Shown here: one piece after another, positions 30,807 through 62,940 of the stretch
How the letters are laid out: each line of letters starts with the position of its first letter
How positions within the stretch are numbered: the stretch's first letter is position 1
From: Microbispora sp. ZYX-F-249
GTDB lineage: Bacteria; Actinomycetota; Actinomycetes; Streptosporangiales; Streptosporangiaceae
Reading direction: 5' to 3'
NCBI RefSeq assembly: GCF_039649665.1
Contig: NZ_JBDJAW010000033.1
Span: forward strand, 1-64,000
Length of the DNA stretch: 64,000 nt
Position numbers and translations under genes: made by a program
Notes under the pieces: model-generated
Seen by the model: the letters and a program-made list of their open reading frames with translations, nothing else
The model's database searches: none
What the model was told of the DNA's origin: nothing

Positions 30807-31811
30807 GTGGGGGCTCTGTTCGTCGGCGTGGACGGGGGAGGCACCAGTACGCGCTGCGTCGTGGTCACGGAATCGGGCGAGATCGCCGGGCGTGGACGGG
30901 CCGGCGGCGCCAACGCGATCTCGGTCCCCGATCCGGCGGCCAATCTGCGTTCCGCGCTGCTCGGCGCACTGGAGGGCCTCGACCGCGCGCTGATCGCGGG
31001 CGGCGTGTTCGGCCTTGCCGGGGCGGCCCGCGCGGCGGAGCCGGCGGAGCGGGCCTGGCGGGAGGCAGGGCTCGCCGGGCGGCCGGCGGTGGTCGCGGAC
31101 GTGCTCGTCGCCTTCACCGGCGCCACCGAGGAGCCGGACGGTGCGGTCCTGGTGGCCGGCACCGGTGCGATCGGCGCGCGGGTCCGCGACCGCCGGATCG
31201 TGCGGCGGGCCGACGGCCTCGGCTGGCTCCTGGGCGACGAGGGCTCGGGCGTGTGGCTGGGCCGCCGGGCCGCCGCCGCGGCGTTGAACGCGATCGACGG
31301 CCGGGGCGAGCCCACCGTGCTGGTCGCCCGGGTGGCCGAGGCCGTCCTGGGCGCCGGGGCGGCCGGCGAGGACGACGGGCCCGCGCTCGCCCAGGCCCTG
31401 GTCGGGGCGGTGTACGCGCGGGTCGCCGAGCTCGGTCCCGCCTGGCTCGGCACGCTCGCGCCCGTGGTGGACGCCGCGGCCCGCGAGGGCGACGAGGTGG
31501 CCCGCGGCGTCGTCGCCGAGGCGGCCCGCAGGCTGTGCCGTACGGCACGGGTCGTCACCGGGGGTGCCGCCCGCGACAGGGGAGCACGGGCGGCGGGAGA
31601 CGGAGGGCCGCTGGTGCTCGCGGGGTCGCTGCTGACCGAGCCGACCGAGCTCGCCCACCTGGTCAGGGCCGAGCTGGGCAGGCGAGCCAGGCTGGTGCGC
31701 GCCCGGGACGCCGCGGCGGGCGCCGCCGCGCTCGCGGTGCGGGCGGCCCTGCCCGGCGACCCGCGCGCCGCCGAGGCGCACCGCGCGCTGATCCGGCAGG
31801 GGGGCGCATGA
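30807..31811 (+). CDS. BadF-type N-acetylglucosamine / N-acetylmuramic acid kinase
   Basis: A 334-residue BadF/BadG-type ATPase with the sugar-kinase fold. It shows FVGVDGGGTSTRC (phosphate 1), VLVAGTGAIGA (phosphate 2) and GWLLGDEGSGVWLGR (GlcNAc-kinase hallmark). The GTG at 30807 follows AAGGGAG by five bases. Members phosphorylate GlcNAc, and Clostridium MurK phosphorylates both MurNAc and GlcNAc (established). With NagZ, MurQ and NamZ nearby, phosphorylation of MurNAc to the MurQ substrate is a natural inference, since no PTS is present. A repeat array begins at its stop codon. Confidence 0.85.
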   Translation: MGALFVGVDGGGTSTRCVVVTESGEIAGRGRAGGANAISVPDPAANLRSALLGALEGLDRALIAGGVFGLAGAARAAEPAERAWREAGLAGRPAVVADVLVAFTGATEEPDGAVLVAGTGAIGARVRDRRIVRRADGLGWLLGDEGSGVWLGRRAAAAALNAIDGRGEPTVLVARVAEAVLGAGAAGEDDGPALAQALVGAVYARVAELGPAWLGTLAPVVDAAAREGDEVARGVVAEAARRLCRTARVVTGGAARDRGARAAGDGGPLVLAGSLLTEPTELAHLVRAELGRRARLVRARDAAAGAAALAVRAALPGDPRAAEAHRALIRQGGA

Positions 31812-31969
31812 GCGAGCGGAGCGGGCGCATCGGCAGGCACTGTGCGAGCGGAGCGGGCGAGCCGGTGCGCACTGTGCGAGCGGAGCGCGCGCATGGGCAG
31901 GCACTGCGAGCGGAGCGCACGCATCGGCAGGCACTGTGCGAGCGGAGCGCGCGCATCGGCAGGCCCTGT
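31812..31969 (+). repeat. five tandem ~32-base units between the kinase and nagZ genes
   Basis: Units start at 31812, 31844, 31876, 31906 and 31938. Each begins GCGAGCGGAGCG and most end GGCAGGCACTGT; four are 32 bases and one is 30. Units 1, 4 and 5 are nearly identical, and unit 2 has a diverged middle. The array starts directly after the kinase stop and ends 64 bases before nagZ. An ATG overlapping the kinase stop (31808) opens a frame through the whole array to beyond the nagZ start, but its product is Arg-rich and probably not a real protein. Confidence 0.85.
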
Positions 31970-40373: not shown

Positions 40374-41480
40374 TCAGCCGTACAGCAGATCGCCGTGGGG
40401 CGGGCCCGGCGGGGGGCACAGCTCCCGGGGGTCGCGGCCCGCCTCCAGGTGCTCGCGCAGCGACGCCGAGCCCCACAGCAGGTCGAGGAACGGCTCGCAG
40501 GCGAAGTCACCCGGATAGAGGGCGCGCAGCGCGTGCAGGACGGACACGCCCGTGCGCACCGGCAGGAAGGCCCGCCGATCGGTCACGTGCAGCTGCGCGC
40601 CGCGCACCACGACGCCCGCGTGCCTGCCGAACGTCGGGGTGAACCACGTGTCGCGGAAGCGCACGCCGGGCAGGCCGAGACCGTTCAGCGCCGCGGCGAA
40701 CCGGCCGTCCGCGTACGGCGCGCCGACCAGCTCGAACGGCCGGGTCGTGCCGCGGCCCTCGGCGGCGTTCACGCCCTCCAGCAGCCCGGTGCCCGGATAG
40801 ACCAGGGCGGTGTCGAGGGTCGGCATGTTGGCCGACGGCATCACCCAGGGCAGCCCGGTGCGGTCGAAATGCCACTCCCTGCGCCAGCCCTCCATCGGCA
40901 CGACCTCCAGCTCGGCGCCGAGCTCGCGGCTGACGGTCGACGCGATCTCGCCCGGCGTGAGGCCGTGCCGTACGGGCAGGGCGGCGCGGCCGACGAAACT
41001 CGCGAACGCCGGGTCGAGCAGCGGGCCCTCGGCCACATCGCCGCCGATCGGGTTGGGCCGGTCGAGCACGGTGAACCGCAGCCCGAGCCGGGCCGCAGAG
41101 CCCATCAGGTCGTACATCGTCCAGACGTAGGTGTAGAAACGCGTGCCCACGTCGCACACGTCGAAGACGATCGCCTCCACCCCGGACGACGCGACCAGCG
41201 CGTCCAGGTCCGCGCCCGACCGCTGGTAGGTGTCGAGCACGGGCAGGCCGGTGACCGGGTCGACGGTGTCGCCCTCGCCGCCGCCCGCCTGGGCCGTGCC
41301 GCGCAGGCCGTGCTCGGGGCTGAACAGCGTGGTCACGGGCACTCCGGCGGCCAGCAGGGCCGGTGCGGCGGCGGTCAGATCGGGCAGGACTCCGGTGGGG
41401 TTGGTGACGAGGCCCACCCGCTCCCAGCCGGCCTTCGGCGCGCCCACCAGCAGCTCAAGCCCTGTACGCACGCGATCCAT
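40374..41480 (-). CDS. namZ: DUF1343 exo-beta-N-acetylmuramidase (NamZ-like)
   Basis: A 368-residue protein of family DUF1343, represented by Bacillus YbbC/NamZ, which removes MurNAc from the non-reducing end of murein fragments (established). Family stretches include RVGLVTNPTGV, TLFSPEHGLRG and DVGTRFYTYVWTMYD. There is no signal peptide, so it may act inside the cell on imported fragments, unlike the exported Bacillus protein. The start is ATG at 41480, after GGAG; a longer reading from 41522 would overlap murQ. The gene is divergent from murQ with a 29-base gap. Confidence 0.85.
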   Translation of the reverse strand: MDRVRTGLELLVGAPKAGWERVGLVTNPTGVLPDLTAAAPALLAAGVPVTTLFSPEHGLRGTAQAGGGEGDTVDPVTGLPVLDTYQRSGADLDALVASSGVEAIVFDVCDVGTRFYTYVWTMYDLMGSAARLGLRFTVLDRPNPIGGDVAEGPLLDPAFASFVGRAALPVRHGLTPGEIASTVSRELGAELEVVPMEGWRREWHFDRTGLPWVMPSANMPTLDTALVYPGTGLLEGVNAAEGRGTTRPFELVGAPYADGRFAAALNGLGLPGVRFRDTWFTPTFGRHAGVVVRGAQLHVTDRRAFLPVRTGVSVLHALRALYPGDFACEPFLDLLWGSASLREHLEAGRDPRELCPPPGPPHGDLLYG

Positions 41481-41509
41481 AAGCACTCCGAAGCCGAGGA
41501 ACCACGACC

Positions 41510-42412
41510 ATGACGCATTCACTCGCCGCTCTCGCCACCGAACAGAGCGATCCCCGCTTCAGCGCCATCGACACGTTGCCGACGGAGGAGATCGCGCGGC
41601 TCATGAACGCCGCCGACGCCGCCGTCCCCGCCGCGGTGGGCCGGGCCGTCCCGGCGATCTCCGCGGCCGTCGACGCGATCGCGGCGCGGATGGCCGACGG
41701 GGGCAGGCTCCTCTACGTCGGCGCGGGCACCTCCGGGCGGCTCGCGGTGCTCGACGCCTCCGAGTGCCCGCCGACCTTCGGCACGCACCCCGACCTGGTC
41801 CAGGGCATCATCGCGGGCGGCGAGGCCGCGCTGGTGCGGTCCGTCGAGGGCGCCGAGGACGACGCCGAGGCGGGCGCCGCCGTGATCCGCGGCAAGCACG
41901 TCGGCCCGCTCGACTCCGTCGTGGGCATCTCCGCCAGCGGGCGCGCGCCGTACGTCGTCGCGGCGGTCGAGCAGGCCCGGCGGCTCGGCGCGCTGACCGT
42001 GGGCCTGGCCTGCAACACCGGCACCCCGCTCGCGCGGGCGGCCGACCACGCCGTCGAGGTCATCGTGGGACCCGAGGTGGTCACCGGCTCGACGCGGCTG
42101 AAGGCCGGCACGGCCCAGAAGCTGGTCCTCAACATGATCTCCACGATCACGATGATCAGGTCGGGCCGGACGTACGGGAACTTCATGGTCGACGTCGTGG
42201 CCAGCAACTCCAAGCTGGTCGACCGGGCGGCCCGCATCGTCTCCGACATCACCGGCACGCAGGTGCCGCGGGCCCGGGAGGTCCTGGAGAACGCCGGGCG
42301 GGACGTGAAGACGGCCGTCGTGATGATCGAGCGCGGCGTGGGCGCCGACGACGCCCGGGCGCTGCTCGCGGCGCACGGCAACCGCCTCGGCCCGGCGCTG
42401 CACAGTGCTTGA
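41510..42412 (+). CDS. murQ: N-acetylmuramic acid 6-phosphate etherase
   Basis: A 300-residue SIS-domain lyase that cleaves the lactyl ether of MurNAc-6-phosphate, giving GlcNAc-6-phosphate and D-lactate. MurQ hallmarks are IDTLPTEEIARLMN, YVGAGTSGRLAVLDASECPPTF, GISASGRAPYV and TGSTRLKAGTAQKLVLNM, where the catalytic Glu residues lie. ATG 41510 follows CCGAGGA. The last codon sits in a 15-base tandem array that runs into the serine-hydrolase gene. Its substrate would come from the BadF kinase acting on MurNAc released by NamZ or NagZ. Confidence 0.95.
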   Translation: MTHSLAALATEQSDPRFSAIDTLPTEEIARLMNAADAAVPAAVGRAVPAISAAVDAIAARMADGGRLLYVGAGTSGRLAVLDASECPPTFGTHPDLVQGIIAGGEAALVRSVEGAEDDAEAGAAVIRGKHVGPLDSVVGISASGRAPYVVAAVEQARRLGALTVGLACNTGTPLARAADHAVEVIVGPEVVTGSTRLKAGTAQKLVLNMISTITMIRSGRTYGNFMVDVVASNSKLVDRAARIVSDITGTQVPRAREVLENAGRDVKTAVVMIERGVGADDARALLAAHGNRLGPALHSA

Positions 42413-42465
42413 TGACACGGTGCTTGATGACACGGTGCTTGATGACACGGTGCTTGATGACACGG
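42406..42465 (+). repeat. four tandem 15-base units spanning the murQ stop and serine-hydrolase start
   Basis: TGCTTGATGACACGG occurs four times without interruption; the fourth copy has one change (CGCCT follows). The first copy contains the murQ stop codon (TGA at 42410). Each unit also contains ATGA, so in-frame ATG codons for the next gene occur at 42412, 42427, 42442 and 42457. As the unit is five codons long, changes in copy number keep the frame. Confidence 0.9.
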
Positions 42466-42486
42466 CGCCTGACGGGACCTGAGCAC

Positions 42487-43506
42487 ATGATTGAGGACGT
42501 CCTGCGGGCCGCGGTGCCCGAGGTCGCCTCGGCGGCGGTCGCGCTGATCGCGGTCGACGGCCGCACGGTCGCCGGGGCCGCCGTGGGGGAGGCCGTGCGG
42601 TACGCCGATCCGTCCGGGGGGCTGCTGCCGGAGCGGCCGCCCGTGTCGGTGGACGCGCTGTTCGACATCGCCTCCCTGACCAAGATGTTCACCGCCGCGG
42701 TGCTGGTCTCGCTGGCGCAGGAGGGCGCGCTCGGCCTCGACGAGCCGGTGGCCGCCCGGCTGCCCCGGTTCTACGGGCACCGGCCCGGGATCACCGTCCG
42801 GCACCTGCTGACGCATTCGGCGGGCCTGCCCGCGAGCCGCCGGGTGGAGAAGGAACCGGAGGAGACCCGCTGGGACCTCGTGCTGTCCACCCCGGTTGAG
42901 GGGCCGCCGGGCACGCACCTGTACTCGGACGTCGGCATGATCACGGCCGGGCGGGTGGCGGAGGCCGCCGGCGGGGCGCCGCTGGACGTGCTCGTACGCG
43001 AGCGGGTCACCCGGCCGCTCGGCCTCGGCGCCACGACGTACGGGCCGGTCGATCGGGGCCGCGCCGTGGCCACGGAGTTCAAGCGCGGCACGTGCGTCAG
43101 GGGACAGGTGCACGACGAGACCGCCCACGCGCTGGGCGGCGTGACCGGGCACGCGGGGCTGTTCTCCACCGCCGCCGACCTCGTGCGCTTCGGCGAGGCG
43201 CTGCGCACCGGCGGCGGCCCGATCCTGTCTCCCGAATGGACCGCCGAGATGCTGCGCGACCAGGGGGTCCCGGGCGCCGCGTTCCGCCAGGGGCTCGGGG
43301 TGCGGATCGGCGATCCCGCCATCGTGGGGCCGCTCACGGACGCGTTCGGCCACTCGGGCTTCACCGGCACGTCGCTGGTCGTCGACCCCGCCCGCCGGCT
43401 GACCGTCGTGCTGCTCACCAACAACGTGCACCCCCTCCGGGGGCGGCCCGGCATCCGCGACCTGCGGCACGCCGTCGCGGCGGAGGCGCTGCGCCTGGCC
43501 GGCTGA
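42487..43506 (+). CDS. beta-lactamase-fold serine hydrolase (AmiE/YbbE-like candidate)
   Basis: A 339-residue serine hydrolase of the class C beta-lactamase/DD-peptidase family: Ser-x-x-Lys in DIASLTKMF, Tyr-Ser-Asp in LYSDVGMI and a His-Ser-Gly motif (GHSGFTGTS) in place of KTG. No signal peptide is seen. In Bacillus, the murein-recycling cluster includes YbbE, reported as the amidase AmiE, of this broad family, so a role on muropeptides is plausible. I list the ATG at 42487, where the domain starts. Earlier in-frame ATGs in the tandem repeat, the first overlapping the murQ stop, could add CLMTR pentapeptides. Confidence 0.8.
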   Translation: MIEDVLRAAVPEVASAAVALIAVDGRTVAGAAVGEAVRYADPSGGLLPERPPVSVDALFDIASLTKMFTAAVLVSLAQEGALGLDEPVAARLPRFYGHRPGITVRHLLTHSAGLPASRRVEKEPEETRWDLVLSTPVEGPPGTHLYSDVGMITAGRVAEAAGGAPLDVLVRERVTRPLGLGATTYGPVDRGRAVATEFKRGTCVRGQVHDETAHALGGVTGHAGLFSTAADLVRFGEALRTGGGPILSPEWTAEMLRDQGVPGAAFRQGLGVRIGDPAIVGPLTDAFGHSGFTGTSLVVDPARRLTVVLLTNNVHPLRGRPGIRDLRHAVAAEALRLAG

Positions 43507-62814: not shown

Positions 62815-62865
62815 TTTCTCTCCTCGCCGGGGGTGGGCGGTCGTACGAACAGGTCGGGGGACGGC

Positions 62866-62940
62866 AGGGGTTCGAGGGGCAGGGGTTCGAGGGGCATGGG
62901 TTCGAGGGGCAGGGGTTCGAGGGGCAGGGGTTCGAGGGGC
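62866..62940. repeat. five tandem 15-base units in the UMF1 leader
   Basis: AGGGGTTCGAGGGGC is repeated five times; the third copy differs at one position (ATGGG). The array sits 52 bases before the UMF1 start, between it and the preceding gene on the same strand. It has no obvious start codons. Its unit length matches that of the murQ array, but the sequences are unrelated. Confidence 0.9.

Follow-up and report, generated by a model that had tools for sequence, protein, structure and literature searches.

A 15-bp tandem repeat of variable copy number between murQ and a serine hydrolase gene in Microbispora

Genes and repeat at the murQ junction

The window, i.e., the whole analyzed stretch of DNA (64,000 nucleotides of the genome of Microbispora sp. 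ZYX-F-249, designated G000; other G numbers denote compared genomes), contains the murQ gene (positions 41510–42412, + strand). It encodes an N-acetylmuramic acid 6-phosphate etherase of 300 aa and was recognized from its open reading frame and a match to the TIGR00274 equivalog (370 bits, cut-off 302). It is followed on the + strand by the gene of a serine hydrolase of the beta-lactamase family (42487–43506; PF00144, 200 bits), whose product comprises 339 aa, or 364 aa when counted from position 42412. ATG 42487 is the family-conserved start of this hydrolase. The protein could not be assigned to a named equivalog (the best NCBIfam match, PBP4B, gave 120.9 bits with a cut-off of 385), and its closest PDB relatives were beta-lactamase-like proteins. 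Upstream of murQ, a divergent namZ gene encoding exo-beta-N-acetylmuramidase was found (40374–41522, − strand; PF07075, PF20732); its start is uncertain and its longest ORF overlaps the murQ start. According to the available text of PMC5061867, murQ operons include PBP4B in E. coli and amiE in B. subtilis, and for this reason the murQ–hydrolase locus likely belongs to a muropeptide-recycling context. A second murQ paralogue (69% identity) is located at G000:C44:14026-14904 (L022) and is also present in several other genomes of the genus; the fetched flank of L022 did not contain a match to the hydrolase that adjoins the array.

The junction of murQ and the hydrolase gene carries a tandem array of four identical copies of TGCTTGATGACACGG (42406–42465, + strand), detected using TRF and sequence reading. 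The copies occupy positions 42406–42420, 42421–42435, 42436–42450 and 42451–42465 and are followed by a degenerate fifth unit CGCCTGACGGGACCT (42466–42480, + strand), found through sequence reading. The TRF score of the array was 123 (span 42401–42465, 4.3 copies, 98%), and 40 dinucleotide shuffles of the window reached at most 79; as a series of short perfect units above the chance level, the array can be classified as a minisatellite (VNTR). The murQ stop codon TGA (42410–42412) lies inside copy 1, so the murQ protein is unaffected by the copy number. Frame reading revealed ATG codons of the hydrolase frame at 42412, 42427, 42442 and 42457, one per perfect copy, and at 42487, with predicted hydrolase lengths of 364, 359, 354, 349 or 339 aa, and this frame gains the pentapeptide CLMTR with every copy. 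The initial annotation, which had described four 15-base copies across the murQ stop, each supplying an in-frame ATG and a CLMTR to the hydrolase, is confirmed by these data, as is its statement that a change in copy number preserves the frame, since 15 bp correspond to five codons.

The murQ stop and the first ATG of the hydrolase frame overlap by one base in the sequence TGATG (42410–42414, + strand), which is proposed as a reinitiation site; the downstream start is thus located at the upstream stop and in the downstream frame, as in coupled gene pairs. If translation started here, the hydrolase would possess a putative N-terminal extension of 25 codons, MTRCLMTRCLMTRCLMTRRLTGPEH (42412–42486, + strand). 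In the third frame, an open mini-ORF encoding VLDDTx4-APDGT (42405–42482, + strand) extends from GTG 42405, which precedes the murQ stop codon by 5 nt, to a TGA at 42480–42482, which ends 4 nt before ATG 42487. RNA folding of the array region was no stronger than that of shuffled sequences (z −0.02). A search of the window's own genome (8.78 Mb draft, 206 contigs) for two tandem units with up to two mismatches matched only the murQ junction.

Copy number and origin of the repeat in Microbispora

A junction query of 601 bases matched all 15 genomes of the genus Microbispora, and the junction was readable in 14 of them; in G012, murQ reaches the contig end, and no close hydrolase was found in that genome. 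Homologous 15-bp arrays were present at this junction in five of the 14 genomes, namely four copies in the window's genome, about four in M. hainanensis G005 (TRF 3.9), about three in G009 (TRF 3.2), about 2.5 in M. catharanthi G003 (TRF 2.5) and at least nine in M. rosea G007 (TRF 9.5; the array includes a 10-N run). The junction of M. bryophytorum G002 showed an 18-bp pair by eye, without a TRF call, and the 15-bp array was absent from the eight other readable junctions, among them that of G011, the sister of G000, which contains one unit. The units were nearly identical within a species and different between species (GTGCTTGATGACACG, GTGCCCGATAACGCG, GTGCCCGATAACACA, GTGCCTGACAACGCG and GTGCCTGATAACGCG). 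In three related Microbispora genomes (loci L011, L012 and L014 of G014, G013 and G001, respectively), a different, shared linker with TTACTTTGTAAA (YFVKA or YFVNA) precedes the hydrolase domain.

A FastTree tree of murQ and the hydrolase grouped G000 with G011 and G005 with G009; the node uniting G002, G003, G007, G005 and G009 carried no support value, and that adding G008 had a value of 0.774. G000 and its closest relative, G011, have four versus one copies at 97.3% identity, and the pair of G005 and G009 has four versus three copies at 97.1% identity. Since sister pairs differ, the copy number of the junction has changed recently, as seen between species. The variability proposed in the initial annotation is therefore found at the level of species, with about 2.5 to at least nine copies where an array is present and a single unit in G011.

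A compact overlap of the hydrolase start and the murQ stop, ATGCTTGA, was found in M. corallina, Sphaerimonospora, Herbidospora, G053 and G023. This outgroup overlap is matched by the (G)TGCTTGA or (G)TGCCTGA present in the array unit, and the resemblance suggests tandem duplication of the stop/start overlap plus a few bases as the simplest origin of the array. The junctions with no, one, about 2.5, three, four and at least nine copies constitute a clear natural series of a repeat growing from a gene overlap.

Hydrolase start codons and arrays at other loci

Each of the five array-bearing Microbispora species has an ATG or GTG of the hydrolase frame overlapping or abutting the murQ stop (−8 to +2), with offsets of +2 in G000 and G005, −8 in G009 and −5 in G007 and G003. 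No stop codon was found between this start and the hydrolase domain in any of the five species (the N run in G007 is unreadable); among shuffled units, 75% are open in a given frame. Pentapeptides of the VPDNA type are read in four of the species and CLMTR in G000, because the length of the spacer between the array and the domain differs there. Consequently, the old GTG frame of G000 (VLDDT) does not match that of the hydrolase, and TGATG supplies the overlapping in-frame ATG instead. In G003, G007 and G011, the overlapping start appears to be a GTG at the offset of the mini-ORF GTG. Since G003 has no ATG, GTG or TTG between the array and the domain, its hydrolase must start either within the array or at the overlap, barring the use of a rare codon. 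Among the Microbispora junctions without arrays, four of nine had an overlapping start, and the others had a close start or a Shine–Dalgarno site (SD) of their own.

SD strength was scored as the best duplex energy over any in-frame ATG or GTG of the hydrolase. It was weak in the five array-bearing Microbispora (−2.7 to −4.0 kcal/mol), and the median was −10.15 kcal/mol in array-bearing orthologues from other genera (18 loci). The SD of ATG 42487 is weak (−4.0 kcal/mol), and the outcome that the initial annotation had named as contrary to its proposal, namely that 42487 is the sole start and has a ribosome site of its own, was not upheld. This ATG is 74 nt beyond the murQ stop. In the accessible part of PMC10666635, reporter work is described in which reinitiation is nearly lost at a stop-to-start spacing of about 20 nt and is (almost) completely abolished at 38 nt in E. 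coli; this distance rule derives from E. coli and Haloferax, not from actinobacteria.

In total, 80 loci were compared, 78 with murQ upstream of the hydrolase and two without it. Arrays were found at 21 of the 78 murQ–hydrolase junctions (23 arrays within 5,873 bp, a density of 3.9 per kb); the density elsewhere at these loci was 0.77 per kb over the 200 bp that follow the hydrolase and 0.20–0.26 per kb within the genes. The junction arrays of other genera of the family are unrelated in sequence to the Microbispora unit; junction array periods range from 8 to 54 and are multiples of three in 11 of the 23 cases. The relationship of period and start was evaluated for 23 array loci (these 21 plus G000 and G009; best array per locus) using two groupings, both picked after seeing the data. 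The period was a multiple of three at 8 of 8 overlap-start junctions versus 3 of 15 others (Fisher P 0.0003), or 4 of 4 versus 3 of 15 when Microbispora was counted once (P 0.009). Grouping by SD with a cut at −6 kcal/mol gave 7 of 7 weak versus 4 of 16 strong loci (P 0.0013), or 3 of 3 versus 4 of 16 with Microbispora counted once (P 0.036, or 0.058 with a period of 15 assigned to L185). Because multiples of three are favoured by an open frame as such, the overlap-start grouping is partly circular; this applies much less to the SD grouping. The period contrast supports in-frame read-through of arrays at overlap-start junctions. Two junctions in other genera are of a particular structure. In Nonomuraea sp. 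PA05 (L169), a 21-bp array between murQ and the hydrolase repeats the hydrolase's own start in frame, with several ATGs and the peptide AMSGPPE AMSGPPG EMSGPLE. In Thermocatellispora tengchongensis (L152), the murQ stop overlaps an ATG, after which an 18/54-bp array between the two genes continues in frame and encodes a long Pro/Asp-rich N-terminal tail (MPEPPAPAPIPDPAPIPDP...).

To describe how ordinary such arrays are, 864 kb of G000 and G009 were analyzed, and 54 arrays (at least 2.9 copies and 85% identity) were found. In gene gaps of up to 400 bp, delimited with a crude purpose-made gene caller rather than the annotation, there were 29 arrays in 244 co-directional, one in 68 divergent and 15 in 86 convergent gaps. 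With similar arrays so common in co-directional gaps, the murQ array itself is ordinary. Preferential seeding at stop codons was not confirmed, as 10 of the 29 co-directional gap arrays touch the upstream stop with a null value of 7.46 (P 0.17); the downstream start is reached by only 2 of the 29. Two further arrays were noted in the window: a 32-bp-period array of five copies (31808–31969) right after the ATGA that ends the preceding gene (stop 31809–31811), another array abutting a stop/start-like overlap, and a 15-bp array of GGCAGGGGTTCGAGG (5.2 copies, 62863–62940) in a co-directional gap, unrelated in sequence to the murQ array.

A dispersed family was also considered. The murQ unit, at 15 bp, lies outside the 40–100 bp range of MIRU units, which reportedly overlap flanking stop and start codons, an observation ascribed to Supply et al. 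(1997). The TGACACGGTGC core plus N4 in tandem gave 40 matches in 10 of 15 genomes of the genus versus three for the reversed control, and loci with this core (up to two mismatches) were found in 5 of 15 Microbispora versus 18 of 235 other genomes of the family. None of 42 sampled 15-bp units matched TGACACGGTGC at nine or more of 11 positions, three loci known beforehand being set aside. A genus-wide dispersed TGACACGGTGC family is not convincing: many of the other loci are coding DTVxx repeats and one is an orthologous tRNA-Gly/tRNA-Cys spacer. Likewise, about three chance loci were expected in G000 and five were seen besides the murQ junction; the estimate was scaled from 45 15-bp arrays per 864 kb and a shuffled-unit rate of 0.6% (at least 9 of 11), and the 864-kb sample is not random, as two G009 blocks were chosen for holding known loci. 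Long open frames with tandem DTVxx or DTAxx pentapeptides of 15-bp period occur in several Microbispora species (L056, L069, L072 and L058). The tRNA-Gly(gcc)/tRNA-Cys(gca) spacer with a 15-bp repeat (L066 1495–1536 in G000:C14; orthologues L071, L048, L050, L059 and L052) measures 27 or 41–42 nt in different Microbispora species, a difference of about one unit.

Possible explanations and relation to known systems

We consider it somewhat probable that the array is a young minisatellite that arose from the stop/start overlap, with the hydrolase reinitiating at ATG 42412 and reading the array as an N-terminal extension. The 15-bp unit would have multiplied by tandem duplication at the site of overlap between the murQ stop and the hydrolase start, and ribosomes ending murQ would reinitiate at the stop-overlapping ATG 42412, which is the most likely start because the hydrolase has no good ribosome site of its own. 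As judged from the reading frames, the array is probably translated, and each copy would add five residues to a repetitive tail before the conserved M[IL]EDVLRAAV... domain. A unit would persist at this junction only if its length were a multiple of three; within this limit, slippage or unequal recombination may let the copy number drift almost or entirely without effect. Two observations argue against such an extension: the conserved M[IL]EDVL start at 42487 and in several relatives indicates that the domain can start without the array, and the array peptide is not conserved, CLMTR being read in G000 versus VPDNA in the others. The same conserved start would be expected if the array were an untranslated neutral spacer, an ordinary minisatellite open by chance, and the hydrolase started only at ATG 42487 with its weak ribosome site. 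This less probable alternative also agrees with the abundance of arrays in co-directional gaps, which seldom straddle the downstream start, and with the unrelated junction arrays of other genera, many of which are not multiples of three. However, it leaves the hydrolase with a weak SD at a distance from the murQ stop at which coupling would be lost by the rules given in the available text of PMC10666635, and it does not explain G003, which has no start codon after its array.

A selected element, in which rapid variation of copies within populations sets the hydrolase level or N-terminus, appears improbable. The closest species do differ in copy number, the perfect copies suggest recent turnover, and the accessible text of PMC2734929 describes a correlation of repeat length upstream of M. 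tuberculosis fpg1 with expression. Nevertheless, gain or loss of a 15-bp unit cannot toggle the reading frame as in phase-variable contingency loci, the RNA fold equals that of shuffles, several relatives have no array and similar minisatellites are common elsewhere in the genome, so the phase-variable or tuning role suggested in the initial annotation is not supported. It is also unlikely, if slightly less so, that the additional overlaps act as a ladder allowing restarts at several ATGs, with copy number setting the lengths of the N-terminus and the murQ:hydrolase ratio. Still more doubtful is a relay through the mini-ORF, i.e., a restart at GTG 42405, translation of VLDDTx4-APDGT to the stop at 42480–42482 and a second restart at ATG 42487. 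The short distances at both ends of this open frame and the GTG at the equal offset in G003, G007 and G011 are in its favour; yet the arrangement is seen in one genome only (G000), the TGATG start, which is in the hydrolase frame, is just as close, and the mini-ORF is possibly a remnant of the old frame. An assembly artefact is very improbable: the genome is a draft of 206 contigs and there is an N run in the G007 array, but the array is only 60 bp long and independently assembled genomes, among them the single-contig G009, carry homologous arrays.

As far as the available parts of PMC10666635 and PMC6728339 describe them, termination–reinitiation pairs with TGATG or ATGA overlaps resemble the murQ junction in the co-directional stop/start overlap and in lacking a good SD at the overlap start, coupling being expected from the overlap. 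Unlike these pairs, the overlap here is tandemly multiplied with successive in-frame starts, and coupling is predicted. The MIRUs of M. tuberculosis senX3-regX3, according to the available text of PMC4213456, are likewise tandem units between two operon genes; their copy number differs between strains and that of the murQ array between species. The murQ unit is 15 bp long versus 53–77 bp, has no convincing dispersed family and appears to have grown in place. VNTR3239 upstream of M. tuberculosis fpg1 is also a tandem array of variable length in a two-gene gap. In the accessible portion of PMC2734929, it is described as absent from relatives outside the M. tuberculosis complex, its units of 55/79 bp are, unlike the murQ unit, not multiples of three, and a link to expression was shown for VNTR3239. 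A survey of prokaryotic satellites (PMC6749651, part of the text) found many periods that are multiples of three, located in genes. In the titles and abstract openings of the literature on tandem repeats, coupling, actinobacterial minisatellites, MIRUs and phase variation, no report of the murQ array was found. Intergenic VNTRs in operons, the kind of array described here, are already known from MIRU (PMC4213456) and VNTR3239 (PMC2734929), each as presented in the available text; the rule relating period and ribosome site is testable.

If the ladder of restarts operated, it would provide a heritable, frame-safe tuning of peptidoglycan recycling, and parallel inventions would be found in Thermocatellispora, Planobispora and Streptosporangium, whose in-frame arrays have an overlapping start, and in the array of Nonomuraea sp. 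PA05 that repeats the hydrolase ATG. The suggested rule is that a multiple-of-three period is obligatory for arrays separating coupled genes that lack a ribosome site of their own, but not for those in front of a gene that has one. The annotated starts of coupled genes preceded by arrays may be wrong by tens of residues.
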